From the IMG/VR virus record IMGVR_UViG_3300034022_000367, positions 1-32,430 of that record: a stretch of 32,430 nucleotides of DNA. One strand, 5' to 3'. The notes below the pieces were generated by a model. It worked only from the letters and a program-made list of their open reading frames with translations. It searched no databases and was not told where the DNA came from. Within the stretch, counting starts at the first letter, position 1. Each line of letters begins with the position of its first letter. A program made the translations under genes and the position numbers. This DNA is from a virus. Shown here piece by piece: positions 8,553 to 32,430 of the stretch.

Positions 8553-10328
8553 TTGGAAAACAATACATCTGAAAATTCTAATTTAACAGTAGAACAGCGA
8601 GCAATATCCCTTCTTGAAACTTATCAAGGGGCAAATAACTATATCCTAAAATTAAAATTACAAAAGGAAACTAATAAAAGATTCTTCCCTACTCGGGCAC
8701 AATCTGACTACATAATAAATTATCACGAAGTAACCCCAAAGGTAGCTAAAAGATGGGTTGATTTAGACCCCTACTTCGCCAAAAAAATTGCCGATGAAAA
8801 ACTATTAACAAATATTCCTGAACAAGTATGGGTGGAAAAGTTATTAGTTGAGAAAGAAAAATCGTATCATATTTGGGGTAAAGTTCTATCCGGTGAAACT
8901 ATTAACGAATTTTGGTTACCGAAGGGAGCTTTAATTAAAACACACACAATTAAAGATGTTGTGGTTGATTATGAAAAATATTCTAATCGTCCCCCACTTG
9001 AGCATCAAAAACTTGCAATTGAGAAACTTGCCGGCTCAAAAAGATTTATTTTAGCCGACGATATGGGACTAGGTAAGACAACTTCCACCATTATTGCCGC
9101 ATTAGAAACGGGAGCGAAGAAAATACTAATTGTTTGTCCGGCATCCCTAAAGATTAACTGGCAAAGAGAGATTGAGAATTATACCGATAGAAGTGTTTAT
9201 ATTTCTGAAGGTAAGAATTTCTCAATAGAACACGATTTTGTGATTGTGAATTACGATATCCTTAAAAATTTTTATGACCTTAAAGGTAAAACAGAATCTT
9301 TAATCACTCAAGGAAATTTTGATTTAATTATTTTGGACGAAGCTCATTATGTGAGTAATGGACAAGCGGCAAGAACTAAACTTGTTAATAGTTTTGCTAA
9401 AAATTGTGAAAGAGTGTGGTTGTTAACGGGGACACCTATGACAAATCGTCCGATGAATTACTTTAACCTATTATCTTTAATTGAGAGTCCGGTTTCCCAA
9501 AATTGGATGGCTTATGCGATACGGTATTGTCAAGGTTACCAATTTATGGCGGGAAAAAGAAAAATATGGAATGTTTCGGGGGCATCAAATTTGGAAGAAT
9601 TAAGAGACAGAACATCAAGACAAGTTTTAAGAAGATTAAAGACCGAAGTTTTAGATTTACCTGAAAAAATTATCACCCCAATTTATTTAAGATTAAAATC
9701 AAAACTTTATGAAGGATTGATGGGTGAATATTATGATTGGTATAATAAGAACCCCGACGAATCAACATCACTTACCGTTCAGTTCAGTAAGTTAATGAAA
9801 GTTCGTCAAGTGATTGCTGAAGAAAAAGTTAAAGATACAATAGAATTGGCGGAAAATATTTTAGAACAAGATAAAAAAGTCATTATCTTTACCAACTTTA
9901 CGGACACATTAAATCAGATTGCCGAACATTTTGGAAAAATTGCGGTTAAATTAGATGGTTCAACATCAAAACCTCAACGACAATACGCTGTTGACCAATT
10001 TCAAGATAATGAAAAGATTAAAGTGTTTGTTGGTAATGTGAAGGCAGCCGGAGTTGGTATAACTTTAACCGCCGCTGAAGCTGTAATCATCAATGACTTA
10101 TCTTTTGTTCCTGGTGACCTAGCACAAGCTGAAGATAGAGCATATAGATATGGACAAAAAAATTCGGTATCAGTTTATTACCCAATATTCGATAATAGTA
10201 TAGAAGGAATCATTTATGATATGGTAAATAATAAAAAACAAAACATTAACACCGTAATGGGTGATAATATAGAAGAGAAGGGTGATTTCATCGGAGAACT
10301 TATGAATAAAATTAACAACCGAGGTTAA
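8553..10328 (+). CDS. SNF2-family DNA helicase/translocase (SMARCAL1-like)
   Basis: The 591-residue protein carries the complete SF2/SNF2 motor. Motif I is DDMGLGKT (K175), motif Ia lies around CPASLKINW (195-203), motif II is DEAH (262-265), motif III is LTGTP (291-295), and motif VI is QAEDRAYRYGQ (525-535). In SNF2 proteins this motor uses ATP to translocate on or anneal DNA. T4 relies on UvsW for fork regression and recombination, so this enzyme may fill that role. Residues about 40-130 form a separate N-terminal domain, perhaps DNA-binding. The start is TTG at 8553; no in-frame ATG precedes residue 171, so TTG is the best available start. A hairpin spans the stop codon. Confidence 0.88.
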   Translation: MENNTSENSNLTVEQRAISLLETYQGANNYILKLKLQKETNKRFFPTRAQSDYIINYHEVTPKVAKRWVDLDPYFAKKIADEKLLTNIPEQVWVEKLLVEKEKSYHIWGKVLSGETINEFWLPKGALIKTHTIKDVVVDYEKYSNRPPLEHQKLAIEKLAGSKRFILADDMGLGKTTSTIIAALETGAKKILIVCPASLKINWQREIENYTDRSVYISEGKNFSIEHDFVIVNYDILKNFYDLKGKTESLITQGNFDLIILDEAHYVSNGQAARTKLVNSFAKNCERVWLLTGTPMTNRPMNYFNLLSLIESPVSQNWMAYAIRYCQGYQFMAGKRKIWNVSGASNLEELRDRTSRQVLRRLKTEVLDLPEKIITPIYLRLKSKLYEGLMGEYYDWYNKNPDESTSLTVQFSKLMKVRQVIAEEKVKDTIELAENILEQDKKVIIFTNFTDTLNQIAEHFGKIAVKLDGSTSKPQRQYAVDQFQDNEKIKVFVGNVKAAGVGITLTAAEAVIINDLSFVPGDLAQAEDRAYRYGQKNSVSVYYPIFDNSIEGIIYDMVNNKKQNINTVMGDNIEEKGDFIGELMNKINNRG

Positions 10329-10340
10329 TTCGGTTGTTAA
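10312..10340 (+). terminator. 11-bp hairpin spanning the helicase stop codon
   Basis: TTAACAACCGA (10312-10322) pairs perfectly with TCGGTTGTTAA (10330-10340) around a 7-base loop that contains the helicase TAA stop. There is no clear U-run after it; a TATTTATA motif follows at once. It may terminate or protect the helicase transcript and insulate it from the next promoter. Confidence 0.5.
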
Positions 10341-10341
10341 G

Positions 10342-10350
10342 ATATTTATA
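10342..10350 (+). promoter_or_regulatory. Candidate promoter motif before the SOD-fusion gene
   Basis: GATATTTATATGAATAAC lies directly after the 10312-10340 hairpin and 19 bases before the ATG. The terminator-promoter-gene arrangement makes this one of the better-placed copies of the motif. Confidence 0.4.
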
Positions 10351-10369
10351 TGAATAACAAATAAGTCAA

Positions 10370-11908
10370 ATGAAAAAGATTGAAGAAAAAATCAATCTCA
10401 TAACAGAAGAACTAAAAAAAGTTGAAACCCTCGAAAATCAACAAATGTTCATTAATGAGATGAAAAAAATAGGGATAGAAAAATTACCCTACGCCTATTC
10501 AGCATTAAAACAATTTATTGATGCTGAAACAATGAATTACCATTATAATAAACACTATAAAGGCTATGTTGATAAATTAAATTCGGCCCTTAAAAAGAAA
10601 GATTATGGTGATTTAGAATTAGAAGAAATTATTAAATCAATAAGTAGATTTGATAAGACAATTAGGAACAATGCCGGAGGAGCTTTTAACCACGCATTGT
10701 TTTGGAAAATGTTAACCCCAAAAAAACAAACACCAAATGGTGAAATTATTAGGCAAATTAAAAAAGATTTCACTACCTTTGTCAAGTTTAAAAATAAGTT
10801 TGAGGAAATTGCTCAAGAAAAATTTGGTTCAGGTTGGGTTTGGTTAGTTTTAACAAAACGAAATACCTTAAAAATCGTAACCACAGAAAATCAAGACAAC
10901 CCTCTTATGAATGTTATAGACGACGGAGGTTATCCAATATTAGGATTAGATTTATGGGAACACGCATATTATTTGAAATATAGAAACAAAAAAAATGACT
11001 ATATTAAGAATTTTTGGAAATGTGTTAATTGGGAATTTGTTAATAAACTATATACAATGAGAATTGAGACTAAACTAAATGAATCATTAAATTTTAAATC
11101 TGTAATTTCTGAAGGTAAATCAGAAAGATGTAGTAGAGAAGAAAACGAGGCCATTCGTATGGTTTTTAATATCAACCCGAAAATTAAACAAATTTTTATG
11201 GAAGGTATTAATCACATCCTTAAAGAAGTTTTTCCGGATAACTATTATGGGTATGGAGAATACGCTAAAGGTGAAATGTCGGGGGTCTATGATTTAGAAA
11301 GAGATGGTCGTTCTGTCTTAAATAAATTAAACACAAACTATAGTTGTTTCTGTGTTCTTCTTAACGACACAAATAAAGTCTTAAGTTCTAAAAATTTACC
11401 AAACATTAAATTAATTGGTTTAAAACCATTAGAACAAATTGAAGAAACTAAAAAATTACTTATTTTCTTACACGAATATAAATTTAGAATATTCACACAA
11501 ACTTCAGCAACATTTCAAAACATTATGAAAGTTTTAACCCAAACCGATACTTGGGGACAATCTCGGGAAGATAAAACTGTTGAGATTTTAAAGAAAAAAT
11601 TTGGGAAAGATAATGTTAACGCCATTGGTAAATTAGGGAGTAAAGCCGATATGATTGGTGGTGTAGATTGTGAAGTCATCATTAACGGTAGAAAATTAAG
11701 TAGTCAAATAAAGCCATTTGGAAGTATTGAAACTACCGGTGAAGAAATTACCGTTATTGGTTCAGGTGCCGTTAAAAAATACTACACAGATTGGTTAATT
11801 TTTACTAGAAATAATAAAGATGTTTTAATTTTCAGAAATAAAAATTCAAAAATCGTTAATGGACAATATGTTTTTCCTAAAGGAGATTTAATTTATTCAT
11901 TAAATTGA
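10370..11908 (+). CDS. Mn-type superoxide dismutase domain fused to a nuclease-like C-terminal region
   Basis: Of 512 residues, 38-228 are a full-length Fe/Mn superoxide dismutase. Metal ligands are H58 (NYHYNKHY), H108 (FNHALFW), and D194 and H198 (DLWEHAYY), with the FGSGWVWL signature at 152-159. Gln at 175 (NQDNP) is the Mn-type arrangement, where Fe enzymes have Ala (SNAGTP). SODs convert superoxide to H2O2 and O2; they are normally about 200 residues and unfused. After a linker (231-260), residues 260-512 form an unrelated region. Its last part (EDKTVEILKKKFG, KADMIGG, QIKPF) resembles a PD-(D/E)XK nuclease core with D427 or D433 and Q446-x-K448. That assignment is tentative. No frameshift is evident. 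There is no Shine-Dalgarno. Confidence 0.85.
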   Translation: MKKIEEKINLITEELKKVETLENQQMFINEMKKIGIEKLPYAYSALKQFIDAETMNYHYNKHYKGYVDKLNSALKKKDYGDLELEEIIKSISRFDKTIRNNAGGAFNHALFWKMLTPKKQTPNGEIIRQIKKDFTTFVKFKNKFEEIAQEKFGSGWVWLVLTKRNTLKIVTTENQDNPLMNVIDDGGYPILGLDLWEHAYYLKYRNKKNDYIKNFWKCVNWEFVNKLYTMRIETKLNESLNFKSVISEGKSERCSREENEAIRMVFNINPKIKQIFMEGINHILKEVFPDNYYGYGEYAKGEMSGVYDLERDGRSVLNKLNTNYSCFCVLLNDTNKVLSSKNLPNIKLIGLKPLEQIEETKKLLIFLHEYKFRIFTQTSATFQNIMKVLTQTDTWGQSREDKTVEILKKKFGKDNVNAIGKLGSKADMIGGVDCEVIINGRKLSSQIKPFGSIETTGEEITVIGSGAVKKYYTDWLIFTRNNKDVLIFRNKNSKIVNGQYVFPKGDLIYSLN

Positions 11909-21741: not shown

Positions 21742-22462
21742 TAAATGTCAAGAAGAAAAAGAGGTTTGTAAATTCTATACTGATAAGACAAAAATAGATG
21801 GTTATTATAGTTCTTGTAAAGATTGTAAAAACACTTATTCTAAAACAAGAGTAAATGAAACAAAAACATATTTAAAATTATGGAAAATAAAAAATCCTAA
21901 TTATAATAAAGAATTTTTAGAAAAAAATCCCGGTTATGTTAAAGAATATTATCAAAAAAATAAAAATAAAATGATAGATTCTGTTAAAAAACATTATAAT
22001 AAAAATAAAGAATTAATATTACCTAAAATTAGAAAATCGTCTTTAAAATATTATTATGAAAATAGTGAAATAATTAAAGAAAAACATAAAAAATATCGAA
22101 AAGATAATAGAACTAAAATTAACCAATATATTACTGAAAAAAAATTAAATGACCCAATTTATCGTTTATCTTGTATTGTAAGAAATAGAATATATTCTTT
22201 TCTTAAACATAAAAATATCACAAAACAAAACAAAACATTTAATATTGTGGGATGTTCTCCGGAATTTTTAAAAGAATATTTAGAAAAACAATTTGTTGAT
22301 GGTATGTGTTGGGATAACAGAAATGAATGGCATATTGACCACAAAATACCGTTATCATCGGCAAATACCGAAGAAGAAATTTATAAACTCTGTCATTACA
22401 CAAATCTTCAGCCTCTATGGGCTGAAGATAATTTGAGAAAAAGTGATAAAATATTAAACTAA
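21722..22462 (+). CDS. HNH endonuclease with N-terminal zinc ribbon (free-standing homing type)
   Basis: The 246-residue protein begins with a four-Cys zinc site (C6-x2-C9, C32-x2-C35). It continues with a Lys/Tyr/Asn-rich helical region with a loose repeat of about 16 residues (40-140), likely for DNA contact. It ends in an HNH nuclease (WHIDHKIPLSS with H204, D206 and H207; then NLQPLW with N228, and N237-x-x-K). This is the build of free-standing phage homing endonucleases, which cut a cognate site and spread with flanking DNA. It is on the opposite strand to its neighbours, and its stop overlaps the next gene's stop (CTAA, 22459-22462). The very high AT content suits a recent insertion. 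Confidence 0.85.
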   Translation: MEKKICSKCQEEKEVCKFYTDKTKIDGYYSSCKDCKNTYSKTRVNETKTYLKLWKIKNPNYNKEFLEKNPGYVKEYYQKNKNKMIDSVKKHYNKNKELILPKIRKSSLKYYYENSEIIKEKHKKYRKDNRTKINQYITEKKLNDPIYRLSCIVRNRIYSFLKHKNITKQNKTFNIVGCSPEFLKEYLEKQFVDGMCWDNRNEWHIDHKIPLSSANTEEEIYKLCHYTNLQPLWAEDNLRKSDKILN

Positions 22463-24810
22463 GATTCTTTTCTTAACTCACTTGAATAGTGCTCAAATCG
22501 GTCATGCTCTGTTGGTGTTAATAATAGTAATCCCGGTTTAATGTTACCTTTAACAGTTTCTTGATAAGCGTACGACATAAGAGTTTGTTCGTAAGGATGA
22601 CCCCATTTTGTTTCCAAATAACATTTATAATTACCTTCTTTTGTTAATACAATCGGCCAATTTGATAAATGGGATTCACCTGTTATATATGGTAACCCTT
22701 TATGAATATGTATTTCATCAAATTTTGTTTTAGGTGAATTAGGGTCTAAACCTTGAACCGGTAATTTAGGGTTATTAGTCCAATGTTTTTGTCTAAAATC
22801 TTGTGGGACATTATACCAACTCCACTGCACACTATGGTCGCCAAAAAACTCACTAAAATTTAACTTTAAAAAATCAAAATTCTCTTTTTGAATAATTCCT
22901 AAAGATTTTTGATATAAATTGTCGACAAATCTTGGGAATCCATTTCTACACACCTCACCTTTTTTAGGGTAAAACGCCATGTCATCTTCAAAAAAGTAAT
23001 AAAAATCCAAATCAGTTTCATCGAAATGTTCGGCAACAAATACTCTACCACCAACAATTCCAATGTTATCTTTCTTAATATGTTCAAAACCGTATTGTTC
23101 ACATAGTTCAATATATCTCGGTGTTGTTGATAAATCAGTTGAATTATCTAATAAGAATTTCTTTGGTTTCTCAACAAAATCTTTATCATAATCCAACATA
23201 GATTGGATAAGAACCTCTAATTGTTTTGGTGAGTTAAATGTGATTACATAAAGAGCCACTTTTGAAGTGTCCAAATTATTCACAACAACATCTTTAGACA
23301 CTTCCGATTTAACCTCAACGGTCATATCTTTTAAATCCTCAAAAAATTTACCCATTAACCCATTACCTTCTATTTCTGAATAAGTAATTAAGTTTGGGTA
23401 CTTGTATGTCATAATAGTAAATAACGATTCCTCAGTACCCATTAACCCATTTGAAAGTGTTTCATTCATTAATCCGTAATAAATGGTGTTAATTTCCGAT
23501 ATAACATCTTTTTTCCCACCAAAGAAACCTGCTCGAGCAACCATATTAACAGGTTTACCGGCTAAATCACATAATTCTTGATACTTGAATCCGTGAATTT
23601 CACTATTGGCATCATACGGGAAACAAACAAAGTGAAAATTCTTAATTAATTTAGGTAATTTATCTAAAACTTTGTCGTGGGTAAAGTATCCAGGGTGGAT
23701 TGTATTTGTTAATCCGGCATCAATCCAAAACATATATTCCGAATCAAACTTATCTAATATTTTTGCATCATGTAAAAGATAAACTTTTGACATAACCAAA
23801 GGGTTGTACATTTCTAATTTAGCTTGAGTTGATTCCGTTAACCACCCAACTTGATTATACCAATCAGGGTTAGTCCTTATTTTTTGAATTTTATCGTAAA
23901 AATCATTATTTTTAAACCAAGATAATTCTCTACGAACAAATTGAGTGTTTTCACTACGTCTATTGTTTAATACAAATTTTTCCAATTCTTCGTCACCAAA
24001 AATTATCATATTCACATCAACTTGCAATAGTTGTTGAAATTTATCTAAATAATGTTGGAATGAGCGAGACCATCCTTCTTGGAGGTCTCCTCTACCTATA
24101 TCCCATAATCCGGTAACTAATGTTGTGGTATTATTAGATTTAGTAGTCTCAACCTTTATAATATCATTTTTAACTATTATTGAATTTTTTTTATACCCAC
24201 CTACTTGAGTGACAACTTCAACCACATTATTTTCAATACCTCTTAATTCAAAGAAATCCTTAATTGCTGCTTCAACACCAGGTAAATCGTTTCTTTTATA
24301 ATCGTGGAAGAATATATAACCACCATCCACAACTCTATCGTAAACTTTAACTAAACTATCATATATTGAGTCATAAAAATCACCATCAAGAAATGCGAAT
24401 GAAATTTTTTCAGGTAATTTATCTTCCGGAATATCACAAAACCAACCTTTTGTTATTATTGGTGTCGGTAAATTATTCTCAATAAAATTACTTGTTAAAA
24501 CATCTTCGCTAGTTACTAAAGTTCTAGGTTTCCACCCTGTGTTAATTTCCCATTTAGATAAATCAGGTAATCCTTCAAAAGAATCGTAAACATATAATTT
24601 TTTATCAGAATTAGTCTCAATTAGAGTTTTCATTAAATATTTACTTGATTCGCCAACATAACAACCTAATTCAACAACATCACCATCTATATTATTTTCG
24701 ATAGCGTCTAACAAATACTCAACTAATTTTTTAACTTGGTCTTGATTAATAATTGATGAATCCACTTGTTTGTTGTGGAAATTCATTATTTCATTTAACT
24801 TATTTTTCAT
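22459..24810 (-). CDS. Three-domain fusion: TylF-like methyltransferase, HtrL/YibB domain, GT-A-type glycosyltransferase
   Basis: Of 783 residues, about 25-215 are a class I SAM methyltransferase of the TylF/macrocin O-methyltransferase type (VVELGCYVGES at 45-55, YVYDSFEGLPDL at 73-84, AFLDGDFYDS, FFHDY). Residues about 228-495 match the HtrL/YibB pattern (LVTGLWDIGRGD, then FWIDAGLTN and ARAGFFGG). Bacterial members of that family lie in surface-polysaccharide clusters and their reaction is not known. Residues about 515-783 resemble a GT-A glycosyltransferase (VALYVITFNSPKQLEVLIQSM, then FFEDDMAFY at 606-614). The chain could add and methyl-cap a sugar. Each domain call is by eye; no internal stop or frameshift is evident. 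It is last in the cluster, with 53 bases after the preceding gene. Confidence 0.78.
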   Translation of the reverse strand: MKNKLNEIMNFHNKQVDSSIINQDQVKKLVEYLLDAIENNIDGDVVELGCYVGESSKYLMKTLIETNSDKKLYVYDSFEGLPDLSKWEINTGWKPRTLVTSEDVLTSNFIENNLPTPIITKGWFCDIPEDKLPEKISFAFLDGDFYDSIYDSLVKVYDRVVDGGYIFFHDYKRNDLPGVEAAIKDFFELRGIENNVVEVVTQVGGYKKNSIIVKNDIIKVETTKSNNTTTLVTGLWDIGRGDLQEGWSRSFQHYLDKFQQLLQVDVNMIIFGDEELEKFVLNNRRSENTQFVRRELSWFKNNDFYDKIQKIRTNPDWYNQVGWLTESTQAKLEMYNPLVMSKVYLLHDAKILDKFDSEYMFWIDAGLTNTIHPGYFTHDKVLDKLPKLIKNFHFVCFPYDANSEIHGFKYQELCDLAGKPVNMVARAGFFGGKKDVISEINTIYYGLMNETLSNGLMGTEESLFTIMTYKYPNLITYSEIEGNGLMGKFFEDLKDMTVEVKSEVSKDVVVNNLDTSKVALYVITFNSPKQLEVLIQSMLDYDKDFVEKPKKFLLDNSTDLSTTPRYIELCEQYGFEHIKKDNIGIVGGRVFVAEHFDETDLDFYYFFEDDMAFYPKKGEVCRNGFPRFVDNLYQKSLGIIQKENFDFLKLNFSEFFGDHSVQWSWYNVPQDFRQKHWTNNPKLPVQGLDPNSPKTKFDEIHIHKGLPYITGESHLSNWPIVLTKEGNYKCYLETKWGHPYEQTLMSYAYQETVKGNIKPGLLLLTPTEHDRFEHYSSELRKES

Positions 24811-24863
24811 TTTTATATTTAAAAGTGTTTTAATTTATTTTTTTTTACTTAAAAAGTACTAAT

Positions 24864-25505
24864 TTATACTTTATAATCAATGTATCTTCCTAAAATATCT
24901 GAATAACCTTCTCTTTGTTTACCAATTCTTTTATTAAAATAAAACCATTGATTTGTTTTTTGTAAAGATTTCCAATATTGGTCATTACAATACATCCACG
25001 ATTGTTGAGTTTCAATATGTAAATTTAAACCTTCTTCTAAATTAGAAATAAGTTGATTATAAAATTTAGAATTTACTACATAACCGCTGGCAGTTTGAAC
25101 TGAACGACCGTAACTAATTAAATCATTAAAAGGTTCAGATTCTACAACATTATAAGATAAAAACAAAACATCAAAATCAATATTCAAATTATTAAAATTA
25201 TTAATTTGTTCATAAAAAGATGTTTTATCTACCGTAAATTCAAAATCATCTTCAAAAATAATAATATTATCAAAATTTTTATCTTTAGCCATTTTTAAAA
25301 GTTCTAAATGAGCAATTTGACAACCAATTAGATTAGGACTATATATGTTTAAATTATTAAATTGGTCAGGTTGTGTTGGTTCATAAATAAATCCAGGAAA
25401 TCTAACCCCCGTTAACCCCATATTAGTTAATTCTTTTTCTATTTGTGTTTTTCTATCAACCCTTCCTTCTAAATTTATATAAAATATATTTTCTAAATTT
25501 ATCAT
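24864..25505 (-). CDS. Glycosyltransferase family 25-like protein
   Basis: The 213-residue protein follows the GT25 layout. It has an N-terminal FYINLEGRVDRK (8-19), then GCQIAHLELLKMAKD (61-75) and the acidic metal-binding motif IFEDDFEF (83-90), then a variable C-terminus. GT25 members add galactose or other sugars to lipooligosaccharide in bacteria or to collagen hydroxylysine in animals. It follows a second GT25-like gene by 3 bases and is about 30% shorter than a typical member, which agrees with a minimal catalytic domain. The donor and acceptor cannot be read. Confidence 0.82.
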   Translation of the reverse strand: MINLENIFYINLEGRVDRKTQIEKELTNMGLTGVRFPGFIYEPTQPDQFNNLNIYSPNLIGCQIAHLELLKMAKDKNFDNIIIFEDDFEFTVDKTSFYEQINNFNNLNIDFDVLFLSYNVVESEPFNDLISYGRSVQTASGYVVNSKFYNQLISNLEEGLNLHIETQQSWMYCNDQYWKSLQKTNQWFYFNKRIGKQREGYSDILGRYIDYKV

Positions 25506-25508
25506 ACA

Positions 25509-27038
25509 TTAATCGTTATCCGGCAGTGGGTTATTCTTAACATATTCATCAGCGTTATCCTCAGCCATAGTTCTAATCGATGTTTGATATCTACGAGACC
25601 CGTCAGTATGTCCCACATATGGTCCGGAACCAACTTTACCATATAAAAAAGTCCCCCATTCATCTCTAATCTCTTCCCATTTTGATTTTAAAAGTAATTC
25701 TCTATATTCCCTAATCATCGAATCTTCAACATTATATTGTCCTTGGTGATTTATACCAACACCCATATTGTATATATATTTTTCGTACCATTCTTTATAT
25801 TTTGATGTTCTTAACATAGATGGGTTATTTGACCATCTTACAGTTGTCACTAATTCAAAATCATTAATTCTATGTTCTTTACCATATGGAGTTTCCTTTC
25901 CGTCACCTGTACCTGAAATCTCAAAACCTTTTAATTGATTGTCGTCTTTATTAAACCACACAGCATTTACAAAATCATATTTACTGAAACAATCTAATAG
26001 ACCTTTAAAATCAATATTCTCATTTTCTAAGAAAATCCAATCGTGTTCTAAAAAAATAAAATAATCCGTTGTTATCGATTTCAACATAATGTCAACACTA
26101 TCGATTAAACCACCCTTAGAATATTTAATTTCATAATTAATTGGTTTATCCCTGTTTTTAAAATAATCTTGTAGTTCTCTAATATTAGAGTAATCCGCTG
26201 TATCATTATTTGTGTCGTATATTATTAAAAACCTACATTTTTCTATTTGGGCTGGTATTGTTTTTAACAAATACCTTAAATAAAATAAAAAATTATCAAC
26301 AAAATGTCCGGTAATTATAATTGTAATATTCTGTTCAACTGAATAGTTTTTAACAAAATCTAATTCATTAACAAATCTATAAAGATAATTTTCATAATTC
26401 CCTTCAATCCATGCATCGTAATTGACTTTCCCTGATGGCATTAATGTAGATTCAAAATTTACTGCGTGAGAAATTAATTTTGGTGTTGTGGTAAAGACAT
26501 TGAAACCTTTTTTACTTAAAACCGATAACCAATCATCAATCGCCAAATAATCTTTAAAATAGTTTGAATTTTCAAGAATATGTTGATAAGCTCTTTTACT
26601 TATAATATATGCCCAAGAACCTGTACTAAAAAAATTTCTTGAAAGAGAGTTTGTTTCCGGTATTAAATATGTTTTTGGGTTACACCCAAACATAACAACA
26701 TCCCATTCAATATCTTTAAGTTCCGTCATAACTTGAGATAATACTTCTTTAAAATCAAATTTAAATTCGTTTATTTTACACTCATCGTAAATTTGAAAAT
26801 CATCCTCTAATACAAACAAAGTATTAACATCTAATTCTAATGATTGTTTAAAAATTTCTAAATGTGATTTTGTGCAAGAATAAAACTTTGCTGGGTCTGT
26901 TAATGCTGAAAACCTTTCTAAATTTTCAATACCATATTTTTCTATTTGTTGTTCAACATTCTCTTTTCTTTCTGTAGATTCATCTAAATTAATATAATAA
27001 CCTTTATCAGCAATCTCTATATCTAAAATTTTAACCAT
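25509..27038 (-). CDS. Two-domain glycosyltransferase: GT25-like N-terminus and second GT-like C-terminus
   Basis: The 509-residue protein begins with a GT25-like domain (GYYINLDESTERK at 13-25, SCTKSHLEIFKQ at 54-65, VLEDDFQIYDE at 76-86). From about residue 235 it has a second GT-like region (ITIIITGHFVDNFLFYLRYLL, KYSKGGLIDSVD, FIFLEHDWIFL) with a possible acidic catalytic patch. Its end reads GPYVGHTDGSRRYQTS. Bifunctional chains of this type build or extend oligosaccharides. It is spaced by 2-3 bases from the genes on each side and is part of one operon. Substrates are unknown. Confidence 0.75.
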   Translation of the reverse strand: MVKILDIEIADKGYYINLDESTERKENVEQQIEKYGIENLERFSALTDPAKFYSCTKSHLEIFKQSLELDVNTLFVLEDDFQIYDECKINEFKFDFKEVLSQVMTELKDIEWDVVMFGCNPKTYLIPETNSLSRNFFSTGSWAYIISKRAYQHILENSNYFKDYLAIDDWLSVLSKKGFNVFTTTPKLISHAVNFESTLMPSGKVNYDAWIEGNYENYLYRFVNELDFVKNYSVEQNITIIITGHFVDNFLFYLRYLLKTIPAQIEKCRFLIIYDTNNDTADYSNIRELQDYFKNRDKPINYEIKYSKGGLIDSVDIMLKSITTDYFIFLEHDWIFLENENIDFKGLLDCFSKYDFVNAVWFNKDDNQLKGFEISGTGDGKETPYGKEHRINDFELVTTVRWSNNPSMLRTSKYKEWYEKYIYNMGVGINHQGQYNVEDSMIREYRELLLKSKWEEIRDEWGTFLYGKVGSGPYVGHTDGSRRYQTSIRTMAEDNADEYVKNNPLPDND

Positions 27039-27040
27039 AA

Positions 27041-27808
27041 TTAATATCTATCGTCGTAGTTATGGTGAGGGGTAAATGGTACACCAATCCATTTTAATTT
27101 AAATTCCGACATTGGTATTGCTAATGACCAATTACCACAAACAATACCTTCGTATCCAAAATTAAATTCTTTTTTATAACCAAAATCTGATAACATATTC
27201 CAAATTTTGTAATATCGTAAGATATCTTCAGGTGTTTTACCCATATATATAACAACAGGACCATCTAAACTATTATATTGGTTATCCTCAAAATTTAAGT
27301 TAAAATGTTCAATATATTTATTGTGTAAATGAAAAATTTCGGATTGTGAATTTTTTTCATATGTGAAAATGGCTTGATTCGTCGAAACAGTATTTTCCTC
27401 AAAAATATTGTCTAATTCATTTTTAATATCTAACCCTGAATATCTTCCATCAAATACAACATCGGAATCTAAGTTTATTACATAGTTAAACCCCATTTCA
27501 GCAGCCTTTCGTAAAATAAATCTTTCCACATTCCAAGGAAATTTAGCCGGATAAATACCAGTAGGGTCTTCAGGAAAAATCTCATATTTTAAAGAAGTTT
27601 CATTATCTTTTCTTAGTTCATCAATATCAAAGATATGAATATAATCAGATTTGTATTCTTCAAAATCTTGAGGTATATTAGTCGATATTAAAAAATGAAT
27701 ATTAAATTCTTGTAAATTTAAATCTATATAATTTTTTAATGATGTGGTTTTTAACCTTTTTGTGTAATTAGGATAGTGAGTATCCAATACGAAACAAATT
27801 TTATTCAT
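27041..27808 (-). CDS. GT-A-type glycosyltransferase
   Basis: The 255-residue protein starts MNKICFVLDTHYPNY and contains YVINLDSDVVFD (109-120). The D-x-D (D114, D116) is typical of metal-dependent GT-A enzymes. Later segments (LDGPVVIYMG, FGYEGIVCGNWSLAIP) fit an acceptor-binding half. The exact family is not recognised. The start overlaps the aminotransferase gene by 8 bases, so the two are likely translated together. Confidence 0.7.
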   Translation of the reverse strand: MNKICFVLDTHYPNYTKRLKTTSLKNYIDLNLQEFNIHFLISTNIPQDFEEYKSDYIHIFDIDELRKDNETSLKYEIFPEDPTGIYPAKFPWNVERFILRKAAEMGFNYVINLDSDVVFDGRYSGLDIKNELDNIFEENTVSTNQAIFTYEKNSQSEIFHLHNKYIEHFNLNFEDNQYNSLDGPVVIYMGKTPEDILRYYKIWNMLSDFGYKKEFNFGYEGIVCGNWSLAIPMSEFKLKWIGVPFTPHHNYDDRY

Positions 27809-28445
27809 AAATTATTTGATTATTTTTAAAAATTGAAAACTCTGTTAAGTCTCTATATCCATCATTTTCGTCCAAATCGGGATTGTCTTTTAACATATTT
27901 TGCATTAATGATAATCCGTGAGAAGCTTGTTGTGGTGTCATATACATATTCCACCCTAACATATCAATATCATCTTCGTGATATAGTTTTTCACTTCTAC
28001 CTTCATATCTAGCCTTTTTAAACCATTTTACAGCTTCCAAATCGTCGGTTAATATCATACCACCTTTTGAAATTTTTAAGTGTTTTTTTATGTGAAATGA
28101 AAGACACATAAATGAATTAGGTATATACATATCAGATGTAAATCTTTTTGCTGAATCATAAATTGTATATGGTTTTAATTGATAAACACCGACCCAATTA
28201 TTTGTAGATTCTCTTTTATCAAAAATTACATTACCACCAGAATGAATAATTGATTGAGGAACAGATAAGTATGTTTTAGATGGTATGATTACATCAGAAA
28301 CTTTTAAATATTTACAACATAAAAACAATGCGTTTGTACAACTGTCCACCGACACAGCGTATTTTGAACCTGTGTAGTCCGCAACCTCTTCTTCAAACAT
28401 TTGAACAACTTTAAATGGGTTGTTAATTGGTCTTCTATAATTCAT
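27801..28445 (-). CDS. Short DegT/DnrJ/StrS-type sugar aminotransferase
   Basis: The 214-residue protein keeps the PLP core of the DegT family. It starts with FEEEVADYTGSKYAVSVDSCTNALFL, has an Asp pairing with the cofactor (D97 in TIYDSAKRF), and the likely PLP lysine K121 in LSFHIKKHLKISKGGMILTD. Typical family members have about 360-400 residues, so this is a short form that ends soon after the catalytic core (GYRDLTEF and a short tail). It may be a compact functional enzyme, a dimer that needs little C-terminal domain, or inactive. These enzymes make amino-sugars on nucleotide sugars. It overlaps the GNAT gene by 11 bases; aminotransferase plus acetyltransferase is a classic pair for N-acetylated amino-sugars. 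Confidence 0.75.
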   Translation of the reverse strand: MNYRRPINNPFKVVQMFEEEVADYTGSKYAVSVDSCTNALFLCCKYLKVSDVIIPSKTYLSVPQSIIHSGGNVIFDKRESTNNWVGVYQLKPYTIYDSAKRFTSDMYIPNSFMCLSFHIKKHLKISKGGMILTDDLEAVKWFKKARYEGRSEKLYHEDDIDMLGWNMYMTPQQASHGLSLMQNMLKDNPDLDENDGYRDLTEFSIFKNNQIIYE

Positions 28446-28830
28446 TTTTTTTCATTATTAAAAATTCAATTTTGAAACCACAAGATTCGAAAAGTTTTAT
28501 ACTTGATAAATTATTGTGTTTAATTTTTGCAAAAGAATTTGGAAAAATTTTCATAATTTCATTAATCATAAATTTACCAACACCTTGTTTTTTAAAATTT
28601 GGATGAGTGGCAACTCTGATATCGTCATCAATTACACCCACAAAACCAACAGGTGTTTCATCAAATAATGCAATATAATATAATTCGCCATATTTTTCCA
28701 TATATTTAATCTGTTCCTCTTTGGTTATAGTAGATTGATTTAAAAATCCGGACACATTATCTTTATGAAATCTTAATTCTCTTATGAATTCATAATATTT
28801 AGGGTTATTTTTTACAATAGATAATTTCAT
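28435..28830 (-). CDS. GNAT-family N-acetyltransferase
   Basis: The 131-residue protein shows the GNAT fold signals: a central strand pair (YYIALFDETPVGFVGVI), then the acetyl-CoA binding motif A in VATHPNFKKQGVGKFMIN (73-90, Q82-G-V-G-K), and a final strand/helix with LFESCGF. GNAT enzymes transfer acetyl (or other acyl) groups to amines. Overlap with the aminotransferase gene suggests it acylates the amino-sugar made by that enzyme, the FdtC- or PglD-like step in other systems. It follows the GT60-like gene by 4 bases. Confidence 0.8.
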   Translation of the reverse strand: MKLSIVKNNPKYYEFIRELRFHKDNVSGFLNQSTITKEEQIKYMEKYGELYYIALFDETPVGFVGVIDDDIRVATHPNFKKQGVGKFMINEIMKIFPNSFAKIKHNNLSSIKLFESCGFKIEFLIMKKNEL

Positions 28831-28834
28831 TTTT

Positions 28835-30082
28835 TTATAAATTTCCAGTTATTCTTTCACACCAACCTTTTGACGTACTAAACGGCCAAACAACCCAGTA
28901 TTTTGGTTTATGTGCTGTTTGAAATTCTCTCCAAACTTTACAATACCCATCAGGGTCTCTCATCATGTTATTAATCTCGTTGATGTCGGCATCTCTTCTA
29001 TTTAAAGTTTCGTCTTTTTCATCGTGAAAAGCGACTACCCAAAATTCATAATCCTTTTCCGGAACTTGAGTAAATCCGATGTCAATACAATGTTTAAAGA
29101 TACTAGCATAACTTGCCAACCATTCTTCTTCGGTTTCATAAATTGTTGGATTAGGTGCGTAATGTTTGTCTAATGTGTATTGTTGAACAGCTCTATTTGA
29201 AAATTTAAGACCTGAATAAATTTCATAATCTTTTAATGTTCTTTCAGTTCCAAAACCATAATAACTAAAATCCATAGTAACCTCCTCACCATCCATACCA
29301 AATAGTTGACGGTTTTTTAAATGAGATAATTCGTTTTTCTTACCCCACTCTTTATCGTCATCCCATTGTTTGGTTCTACCCTTACGAGTATATTCGTGCC
29401 AAATAACGGTTTTATGTGGGTGAAATAAATCATATCCATGAGTAAATGCTCTAACAGCTATTGATATTTCTTCACCGTGGAAATAGAACTCAGGGTCGTG
29501 TTGAACCTCAACACTAAATTGACCTAATGTAAATGCCATATGGGCGGAGTAAAATCTTGAGGTAACGGGTTCTTTAAGTGTTTCCCATCCCGGAATTGTT
29601 TCAGGTAAGAAGAAGACGGCACCTTCTGGTATAAACCTGTCAAACGACATTCTCCATGGGTCTCTAACTCTCCCTGCTGGGTCATTGTCGGGGTCAAATG
29701 AAGAAACATACCCTGTCAATAAAGGTTTCTTAAATCCTTTCTTTTGAAGTTGTTTAACCATTTTGATTAAGGTGTCGTCCCAATCTTTCTCAAATCTCAT
29801 GTGAGAGTCAATTTGTAGGGTATATTCTTCACCTTTATATAATTGTTGTACTTGGTTTCTTGCCCAACAAACACCTTTGGACTCTGTGTATAAAACATCA
29901 ACAACTCTAAATCTTTTATCTTTTGCGTATTCGGATAAATCATCAAACCCATCTTCCGGGTGATATTGACGACATATTCCAATTACCAAATTTTTAGGTT
30001 TTTTTGCATTCTCCAACATTGACTTAATTGTTGGAATAAGTTGGGGGTCACGATAGGACGCGATTTGTACAAAAATTTTCAT
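28835..30082 (-). CDS. GT60-like polypeptide GlcNAc-transferase (PF11397 type)
   Basis: The 415-residue protein begins IFVQIASYRDPQLIPTIKSM (3-22). It has the family-defining LQIDSHMRFEKDWD (89-102), with D92-x-H94 in the place of D-x-D, and FHGEEISIAVRAFTHGYDLF further on. I recognise this as the GlcNAc family PF11397 (CAZy GT60). Characterised eukaryotic members include the Dictyostelium Skp1 hydroxyproline GlcNAc-transferase and trypanosome mucin-type threonine GlcNAc-transferases. The acceptor here is not known. The gene is 87 bases downstream of the adhesin with long Pro-Thr tracts and precedes the sugar-tailoring genes, which fits a virion-protein acceptor. A TATTTATC motif lies 43 bases before the ATG. 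Confidence 0.82.
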   Translation of the reverse strand: MKIFVQIASYRDPQLIPTIKSMLENAKKPKNLVIGICRQYHPEDGFDDLSEYAKDKRFRVVDVLYTESKGVCWARNQVQQLYKGEEYTLQIDSHMRFEKDWDDTLIKMVKQLQKKGFKKPLLTGYVSSFDPDNDPAGRVRDPWRMSFDRFIPEGAVFFLPETIPGWETLKEPVTSRFYSAHMAFTLGQFSVEVQHDPEFYFHGEEISIAVRAFTHGYDLFHPHKTVIWHEYTRKGRTKQWDDDKEWGKKNELSHLKNRQLFGMDGEEVTMDFSYYGFGTERTLKDYEIYSGLKFSNRAVQQYTLDKHYAPNPTIYETEEEWLASYASIFKHCIDIGFTQVPEKDYEFWVVAFHDEKDETLNRRDADINEINNMMRDPDGYCKVWREFQTAHKPKYWVVWPFSTSKGWCERITGNL

Positions 30083-30133: not shown

Positions 30134-30169
30134 GAAAATAATTAATTTATTAATTTTTTGTCAAACGAA

Positions 30170-32430
30170 CTAAGTGGTAATAGTAGGTGTAGGTGTGATA
30201 GTTGGTGTTGGTGTAGGGTCCGGTATCATTCCTCCATCTGTTATTGTCCAAGCGTATCCACCACTTAATGTTGACCCTGTTAATATATTTCTACCAGCTT
30301 GACTCGCTGAAGTGTATTTTGCGGTACCAAAATTAATTGTTATTCCTGATTTTGGCATTTTGGTTGACCATCCATTATAAATTGCGTCTAAATTTGTTGA
30401 CGAGAATGTTGACAGTGTTTTTCCAAACATAAACTCAGTAAAGTTAGTCACACCACTTACATTCCAAGACCCTATATCTTTGTTAAAGGCGGCGCTATAA
30501 AACATATAATCCATCCTTGTGACTGCCGATACATTCCAATTTCCAATAGGTTGATTAAATGCTGACTCAAGAAACATACCACTCATGGTTTTTACATTTG
30601 AAACATTCCATCCGGATAATGGTTGATTGAAGGATGTGGCGCAAGAAAACATGTTACTCATATCAGTAACGCCACTCACATTCCAATTTCCAATAGGTTG
30701 ATTAAACGATGAGGTTCTGGTGCCGGAGCTATTATCAAACATTTGAAGCATATCGGTAACTTTTGAGACATCCCAATTTCCGATAGGTTGGTTAAAAGTT
30801 TTGGCGTATCTAAACATCATTCTCATACTAGTAACATTCGAAACATTCCATCCGGATAATGGTTGGTTAAATAATGTGGCGCTATCAAACATAAAAAACA
30901 TACTCGTAACATTTGAAACACCCCAATTATTCATATTATTAATCGTTGTTATTGAACTACATGACCCAAACATATAATCTAAACTCGTTGTTCCAACTAA
31001 ATTTAATGTATCTGTAACACCAGTTAATACTAAATTATTACAACCGTAAAAATAACCACCACTATTCCCTAATTTAAGACTACCCCATTGTAAAATTTCT
31101 CTAATCTTACTTTTACTTCCTAAATTATTAAATCTCCATCCATTCGTTGTTCCTAATATGGTAACAGTATAATCTCCGGAAGATGTGTAGGTGTGAGTTC
31201 TATTCGCATATGAATTAACTGAAGTGTTTCCATCACCCCAATTTATTGTACCGTCATATGTACCACCAATTTCATAAGGTAATGTTATTGTTTCGCCCGA
31301 GGTAGTTGTTCTCCAAATAGATGTAAATGGTGGGAGAGGTGTTTGAGATGGGGAATCTCCCGGTGTTGGTGTTGGTGTTGGTGTTGGGGTTATTTCATCT
31401 TTTATTAACCTTACTGATAAACCGATTCTCCAAGTATAATCGGATTTATAGACTGAAATGTACCTGTTTTCTAGTTGGTAATTCCAAGAGGTAGTAGGTG
31501 TTATTCCACCACCATTATCAGCCTCTGTTGAAGTCCACCAACAACCCCTGTTACTAATTGAGTAAAAACTTCCACTTGCAAAACGTAAACCTCCAGGAAG
31601 ACCTGTAAAACCGACGGAGTTGGTAGCACCCGTATTAGGACTTGTCCATAGCGATGTACCTGTTGATTTCATTTCTCCACCTGCAACATTTATCCCCCCT
31701 AAATAGGTGGTTAAAGTAGTCCATTCGGCATCTGTTGGAACGTGGTAGCCTGTAGGTGCTAATCCTCTTGGGTCATTAACAGCATACCAATTGTATAACT
31801 TTCCATACGTTGTACCATTAGAACTTATATTAGCATAGTAACACCAGGCTCCTGTTGTTAATCCTAACCAATCTGTTGAACCTGTGACTTGTGGTATTTC
31901 AGTACCATCTCTATAAGTTGTAACATCAAGGTTTTTACTAGTCCAAGTTTGAGTACCTATCGTAATTGTTGAAAGTGCGATGGTTGTACTAGTAGGTGTA
32001 GGAGTTGGTGTTTCAGTGTTTGTAGGTGTGGGAGTAGGTGTAGGTAATTGTTCATTTGTAGGTGTTGGAGTAGGTAATTGTTCATTTGTAGGTGTTGGAG
32101 TTGGTAATTGTTCATTTGTTGGTGTAGGAGTTGGTGTTGGTGTTATTTCATCTTTTATCAATCTTACTGAGAAACCGCTTTCCTTATTGAAGTAGCTTCG
32201 GTAAGCGTCTCCGTTATTGAAATTCAGGATACTGGCCCATACGTCCGATGTATCGTACTCTGACGAACTCCACCATATACCGTTGAGTGTGAGGACGTTG
32301 AAATTACCACTATTGCTGGAGCGATTCCCTCCCGGAAGACCTGTAAAACCACTTTCGTTAGTGGCTTCTGTGTTAGGACTTGACCAAAGAGATGTACCTG
32401 TTGATTTCATTTTACCACCAGCATTTGTTC
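30170..32430 (-). CDS. Large modular adhesin (FISUMP x2, PKD-like, BspA/DUF285 repeats, Pro-Thr linkers), N-terminus beyond the window
   Basis: The frame stays open to the right edge, so the gene starts outside; the Met at 32410 is internal (it aligns with AGGEMKSTGTSLW in the second FISUMP copy). Counting from that Met: residues 1-88, end of a first FISUMP domain; 89-140, Pro-Thr linker; 147-338, a complete second FISUMP (IGTQTWTSKNLDV, YGKLYNWYAV, SVRLIKDE); 340-360, linker; about 365-420, PKD-like (WGDGNTSVNSY, HTYTSSGDYTVTI); about 475-665, seven BspA/DUF285 repeats of about 25-30 residues (FNQPLSGWNVSNVTSM type); C-terminal domain; final Pro-Thr tail. These are surface/adhesion modules in Bacteroidota and relatives. 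In a phage genome they most likely form a long receptor-binding fibre. Confidence 0.85.
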   Translation of the reverse strand, partial: TNAGGKMKSTGTSLWSSPNTEATNESGFTGLPGGNRSSNSGNFNVLTLNGIWWSSSEYDTSDVWASILNFNNGDAYRSYFNKESGFSVRLIKDEITPTPTPTPTNEQLPTPTPTNEQLPTPTPTNEQLPTPTPTPTNTETPTPTPTSTTIALSTITIGTQTWTSKNLDVTTYRDGTEIPQVTGSTDWLGLTTGAWCYYANISSNGTTYGKLYNWYAVNDPRGLAPTGYHVPTDAEWTTLTTYLGGINVAGGEMKSTGTSLWTSPNTGATNSVGFTGLPGGLRFASGSFYSISNRGCWWTSTEADNGGGITPTTSWNYQLENRYISVYKSDYTWRIGLSVRLIKDEITPTPTPTPTPGDSPSQTPLPPFTSIWRTTTSGETITLPYEIGGTYDGTINWGDGNTSVNSYANRTHTYTSSGDYTVTILGTTNGWRFNNLGSKSKIREILQWGSLKLGNSGGYFYGCNNLVLTGVTDTLNLVGTTSLDYMFGSCSSITTINNMNNWGVSNVTSMFFMFDSATLFNQPLSGWNVSNVTSMRMMFRYAKTFNQPIGNWDVSKVTDMLQMFDNSSGTRTSSFNQPIGNWNVSGVTDMSNMFSCATSFNQPLSGWNVSNVKTMSGMFLESAFNQPIGNWNVSAVTRMDYMFYSAAFNKDIGSWNVSGVTNFTEFMFGKTLSTFSSTNLDAIYNGWSTKMPKSGITINFGTAKYTSASQAGRNILTGSTLSGGYAWTITDGGMIPDPTPTPTITPTPTITT
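31384..32183 (-). repeat. Duplicated FISUMP cassette within the adhesin gene
   Basis: The two FISUMP domains share nearly identical DNA at both ends. The C-terminal edges (31384-31421 and 32138-32175) encode SVRLIKDE and the start of each Pro-Thr linker. The N-terminal edges around 31650 and 32400 encode MKSTGTSLW. The middles differ. This points to in-gene duplication with exchange of the central part. Confidence 0.6.
32043..32132 (-). repeat. 30-base tandem repeat (x3) in the adhesin linker
   Basis: Three near-identical 30-base units (32043-32072, 32073-32102, 32103-32132) each encode ten residues of the NEQLPTPTPT type. The unit is a multiple of three, so copy number can change without breaking the frame, a possible way to vary stalk length. 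Confidence 0.88.

Follow-up and report, generated by a model that had tools for sequence, protein, structure and literature searches.

A putative DGR-derived binding site in the FISUMP adhesin of a phage lineage with no detectable DGR

The window analyzed here, a 32,430-nucleotide stretch of viral DNA (IMG/VR record IMGVR_UViG_3300034022_000367), ends within an adhesin gene in which the region 32168–32338 (minus strand) would represent the variable region (VR) of a diversity-generating retroelement (DGR) target within a FISUMP (C-type-lectin/FGE-like) receptor-binding domain. A DGR origin for this patch appears very probable from its base pattern. The preferred reading, to which we assign a probability of roughly 0.6, is that the patch is a DGR-diversified Bacteroidota binding site that was captured by phages without a DGR and has since drifted in the window. 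Here, the variable codons would have arisen from template-repeat (TR) AAC/AAT codons via adenine-to-N mutagenesis, as their pattern suggests, and near-identity at template-fixed bases points to the DGRs of freshwater Flavobacteriaceae/Bacteroidota as the template lineage. Because the phage lineage is without a detectable DGR, the site would most likely have been acquired ready-diversified, through recombination with a FISUMP gene of a host or a phage. The lineage would then keep such sites and re-shuffle them among adhesins, the window copy having presumably been changed afterward by ordinary mutation. By analogy with DGR targets such as Mtd, the patch probably forms the ligand-contacting surface that selects the host glycan or protein to be bound.

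Layout and composition of the adhesin gene

The adhesin gene (30170–32430) has its 5′ end open at the contig edge and comprises Pro/Thr linkers, DUF285 repeats and two FISUMP domains, all on the minus strand. The first FISUMP (PF09603) domain is represented by its C-terminal half (32153–32428), the contig ending within the domain, and is joined by a Pro/Thr-rich linker with PTPTPTNEQL repeats (31998–32152) to the second (31400–31978), which is complete, is without a DGR signature and serves as an internal control. DUF285 (BspA-type surface) repeats occupy approximately 30389–31081. Both FISUMP copies scored above the Pfam gathering cut-off of 33.9 bits, with 44.4 bits for the partial copy (32153–32422) and 143.9 bits for the second. 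The GC-rich segment delimited by the initial annotation, 32181–32340, lies on the minus strand within the first domain. The TR-homologous part, approximately 32168–32338, begins no more than 2 bases from the 5′ edge of that segment and runs ∼13 bases beyond its 3′ edge; it contains NNC codons and template-like fixed bases and has one codon that the TR lacks. Approximately 2 kb of the same open reading frame continues after the VR, which is therefore not at the 3′ end of the gene. The VR is terminal in the target genes of the phage contigs L003, L004 and L005 and of G028, a 322-kb phage record, the sheath of which shares 91% identity with that of the window.

The DNA of the window is 91–94% identical to that of G028 over long stretches up to 30159, past which the whole adhesin gene differs from its G028 counterpart at the DNA level. 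A sharp mosaic edge is thus located at 30159–30170, where 94% identity gives way to an unrelated adhesin, and this implies that whole adhesins are swapped among close relatives. The initial annotation had suggested comparing related strains for mosaic edges; the nearest relative differs across the entire adhesin gene and not only in its middle. The adjoining region 22459–30082 holds a sugar-related cluster that includes a TylF-like methyltransferase with HtrL_YibB and glycosyltransferase-like, aminotransferase-like and acetyltransferase-like genes. Elsewhere in the window, at 10370–11908, a 512-residue protein combines Fe/Mn superoxide dismutase domains with a long additional C-terminal part, and a gene for an SNF2-type helicase adjoins it.

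The GC enrichment reported for 32181–32340 was reproduced, at 47.5% against 31.2% for the whole window. However, 66 of the 32,271 overlapping 160-base windows reach this value, and they fall in three places (29533–29701, 31590–31774 and 32174–32401); with two other places equally GC-rich, GC content alone proves little and was dropped as evidence. The codon composition is more distinctive. Codons 35–82 of the reading frame have a GC3 of 0.58 and a C3 of 0.42, as compared with maxima of 0.48 and 0.29 over any 48-codon stretch outside the segment, and nothing else in the window shows such a bias toward C at the third position. NNC codons make up 22/36 of NNY codons in the segment, as against 1008/4963 across the remaining genes (Fisher p = 1.3 × 10−7), which bears out the distinct set (TTC, AAC, TAC, CTC, GTC, CGC and AGC) noted previously. 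Also upheld was the claim that the edges of the segment match the second FISUMP copy while the middle does not: 27 of 32 residues are alike over codons 3–34 (17 codons being identical) and 7 of 8 over codons 85–92, as against only 14 of 49 over codons 35–84.

A structural model of the FISUMP domain from L003 was built with 89 sequences and gave a pLDDT of 97.8, an earlier model with 11 sequences having been poor (pLDDT 45.7). It aligned with FGE (Z = 7.3), Mtd (6.3–6.8), TaqVP (5.5), C-type lectins (∼6) and Legionella Lcl, within an overall range of 5.5–7.7; given that every Z score is below 8, the fold match is suggestive only. No match was obtained in a sequence search of solved structures, or by Foldseek alone at E ≤ 0.001.

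Codon pattern of the patch in phages and Bacteroidota

FISUMP (Fib_succ_major) is a documented DGR target (PMC4159848; PMC8143477). A scan for relatives revealed some 20 AT-rich phage records that bear such a FISUMP core, on unrelated tail proteins. In these relatives, GC3 is ∼0.45–0.7 in the core and 0.1–0.4 upstream, and the rise is sharply bounded. Equal GC richness and conservation in all relatives had been named by the initial annotation as a sign against its reading if it went with a lack of cellular matches; many of the phage relatives do have a GC-rich patch, but the core also has counterparts in cellular genes. When the phage cores were aligned, the variable codons were almost always C-ended, with fixed bases between them (TGGTGGAGTTCGTCAGAG, CGC, GGC and CTG). 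Divergence among the phage family VRs at codon positions 1, 2 and 3 was 0.38, 0.36 and 0.21, respectively, compared with 0.23, 0.23 and 0.42 upstream. Ordinary coding evolution shows the opposite codon-position pattern to that of the phage VR cores. Judged from sequence, the inversion is the mark that adenine mutagenesis of AAC codons would leave, as in DGR VRs.

Over a shared stretch of ∼3.9 kb, the phage contigs L105 and L143 differ at just 3 bases, all of which lie in two adjacent VR codons; in every other near-identical pair, the VRs are identical too. The L105/L143 difference hints at targeted change once the two had diverged, and capture by itself accounts for this less readily. One protein encoded at 8911–10760 of locus L245, from a 121-kb phage record (G041), contains three tandem FISUMP domains, two of whose cores differ mainly at positions 1 and 2 of NNC codons, like two VRs of one template. 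The VR of L003 had no DNA-level match among deposited phage genomes, where its FISUMP relatives are <60% identical.

The template inferred from the phage VRs was used to scan bacterial genomes, and complete DGRs were thereby found in Bacteroidota. In a Flavobacterium MAG (C8; L295/L373), the order is FISUMP target, bAvd (PF22296, E = 3 × 10−15), TR and RT; in Flavobacterium strain CYK-55 (L290), a VR and TR are present at the locus and an RT in the same genome. Within the target genes of L290 and L295, GC3 is 0.60 in the VR and 0.42 upstream. The codons of the patch had been taken for ordinary host usage. That interpretation is not sustained: the NNC codons would be what remains of AAC after adenine mutagenesis, and the VRs stand out in the host genes as well. 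The cellular VRs mismatch the Flavobacterium TR at 29–30 of 67 adenines and at 0–1 of 103 other bases. For the window patch, the corresponding counts are 31/67 and 21/103 (p = 3.5 × 10−4), the TR here not being the phage's own; the bias is clearer for the phage VR of L003, with mismatches at 24/67 adenines and 8/103 other bases. The third bases of the AAY codons in the TR are kept at 17 of 21 positions in the window, and at 4–7 of 21 in four control FISUMP sequences (L253, L263, L272 and L277), in which the adenine bias is also absent. A further control, L268, does display some adenine bias, and this counts against the DGR reading.

Comparison of the window core with L285, a contig from a Flavobacteriaceae MAG, gave divergences of 0.36 at codon positions 1 and 2 and 0.24 at position 3, the upstream values being 0.25 and 0.64. 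Core third-position divergence was ∼0.5–0.67 in control FISUMPs and in the second window copy, for which it was 0.56. Ordinary FISUMP domains, that second copy included, do not have the third-base conservation of the patch.

L285 matches the phage-inferred template at 92 of 93 fixed bases. The contig is bacterial: judged from their translations, its open reading frames include RimO-like, prolyl-tRNA-synthetase-like and TypA-like ones. The best phage match to L285, L003, is identical to it at 99% of template-fixed sites, 50% of adenine-derived sites and 63% over the 30 codons upstream. Ten phage VRs, but neither the window nor the cellular genes, went into inferring the fixed sites, and identities between phages are for that reason partly circular. 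The window core retains 82 of 93 template bases and has the extra codon, which makes this copy look older or differently templated; the freshest of the other phages retain 89–93. In a tree of the N-terminal FISUMP half, phages and Bacteroidota were intermixed, and at least two changes were forced by well-supported branches. The host-to-phage exchange from a Bacteroidota source proposed originally is supported by the L285 core and by this tree, but the description of that exchange as recent is doubtful in view of the drift of the window copy.

Two MAGs, G076 (Flavobacteriaceae) and G081 (Bacteroidota), have at least 4–5 VR-like FISUMP targets per genome, and a DGR-type RT was found in neither. 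The assemblies may be incomplete, or RT-less spread may occur inside cells as well. An RT of G076 was considered as the missing enzyme and rejected, its phrog_1423 match having E = 2.6 × 10−8 as compared with ∼10−92 for the Flavobacterium DGR RTs; it appeared retron-like by eye and had no TR adjoining it.

Search for retroelement components and routes into the phage

A DGR RT (phrog_1423) was not found in any of 27 phage records, which may be incomplete and which comprised the window, G000 and G028 among others, and RVT_1 gave no match above the cut-off in any phage record searched. No TR was present in the window or the scanned loci, including those beside the first phage relatives, and a TR-sequence search of 24 phage records returned just the FISUMP cores and short chance matches. 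The 2.9 million viral contigs of IMG/VR were scanned with the inferred TR peptide and a DNA pattern, and no TR of this lineage was detected. The single match (L395; IMG/VR 2509601030_000011) was an unrelated Mu-like prophage that carries a complete DGR with a FISUMP target, the TR lying in frame at the start of the RT open reading frame.

For the route into phages without an RT, we infer capture of diversified sites, which is favored over a DGR in cis or a host DGR in trans. That the phage has its own DGR, located beyond the 32-kb record, is an unlikely explanation. The window is a fragment, the collection scans omit records very near it, the freshest-looking phage VRs are on contigs of only 15–48 kb, and L395 demonstrates that a complete DGR, its target a FISUMP protein, can reside in a Mu-like prophage. 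However, the 322-kb relative G028 has a VR but yielded no RT or TR, the one TR match among the viral contigs is to that unrelated prophage, and the RTs recovered from viral contigs are only 27–28% identical. Slightly less credence is given to the action of a host DGR in trans, whereby a Flavobacteriaceae RT and TR would retrohome into the FISUMP gene of an infecting phage and diversify its adhesin. This would fit phage and chromosomal cores that are nearly identical at template-fixed bases yet 50% different at adenine sites, the RT-less phage records and the VR-restricted differences between L105 and L143, and remote VRs within one genome are known (PMC7517822; PMC4372165). Against it, the phage VRs terminate in GTAAGATTAATAAAAGAC or a close variant of it, and the 3′ end common to cellular VR and TR, GTGCGTTGCCTCAGGGATT, is absent from all phage VRs examined. 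Moreover, BPP-1 requires a 3′ IMH and hairpin (PMC3240598), whereas no downstream hairpin was found in the window, L003, L004, L233, L241 or L251, the window copy having no stem of ≥6 bp within 130 bases downstream; several MAGs rich in VRs themselves also show no DGR RT. A freshwater Flavobacteriaceae TR with the 3′ end GGTTTCTCAGTAAGATTA, if present, would favor action in trans, and the hypermutation machinery of the host would then broaden the binding range of its phage.

Two explanations dispense with a DGR in the history of the patch. The initial annotation regarded it as simply a fragment of a cellular FISUMP gene that retains host codon usage and was recently patched in; Bacteroidota genes with the same core do exist, and the edges do match the second FISUMP copy. 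This is nevertheless highly improbable, since the codon anomaly is VR-specific in host genes too, variation falls on codon positions 1 and 2 with third bases preserved, a pattern of adenine-directed change that contradicts it, and a recent arrival sits poorly with the drift of the window copy. A conserved fold under ordinary diversifying selection, without any retroelement, is the other explanation; it draws on the tendency of lectin-like folds to keep some residues and vary others. It scarcely merits credence, given that it leaves the conserved third bases of the variable codons unexplained and that control FISUMPs of the same fold are without the pattern.

Relation to known systems

If phages without an RT carry binding sites made by bacterial DGRs, DGRs bear on phage host range more widely than is now estimated, and cellular surface-protein variants would constitute a ready library of adhesins for phages. 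Patches of NNC codons in AT-rich genomes would then provide a codon-level marker for such sites in fragments. DGR surveys seek an RT with a nearby target. A large survey states that remote targets escape it (PMC8144416).

The closest counterparts are the Flavobacterium DGRs of the C8 MAG and CYK-55, which resemble the window in having a FISUMP target with NNC variable codons and a TR core that hardly differs at template-fixed bases. Unlike the window, they have a bAvd, TR and RT cassette beside the VR (L295), a VR at the 3′ end of the gene and a VR/TR terminus not seen in the phages. DGRs of the human microbiome likewise have Fib_succ_major targets (PMC4159848), and in the Bacuni phages of Bacteroides uniformis the VR is both phage-borne and in such a domain (PMC8143477); those phages, however, carry a complete DGR, whereas none is detectable in the window lineage. 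In Bordetella phage BPP-1, the receptor-binding domain of Mtd is C-type-lectin-like, is varied at adenine-derived sites and aligns with the FISUMP model at the Z scores given above, but BPP-1 has an RT, Avd, TR, IMH and hairpin, none of which this analysis detected, and the VR of the window sits within an internal domain. The remote VRs of cyanobacteria (PMC7517822) and the partial DGRs of Nanoarchaeota (PMC4372165) share with the window a target VR situated away from the RT. In those organisms the RT is in the same genome, whereas here the VR and its nearest template lineage are in different replicons, the one of a phage and the other of a bacterium.
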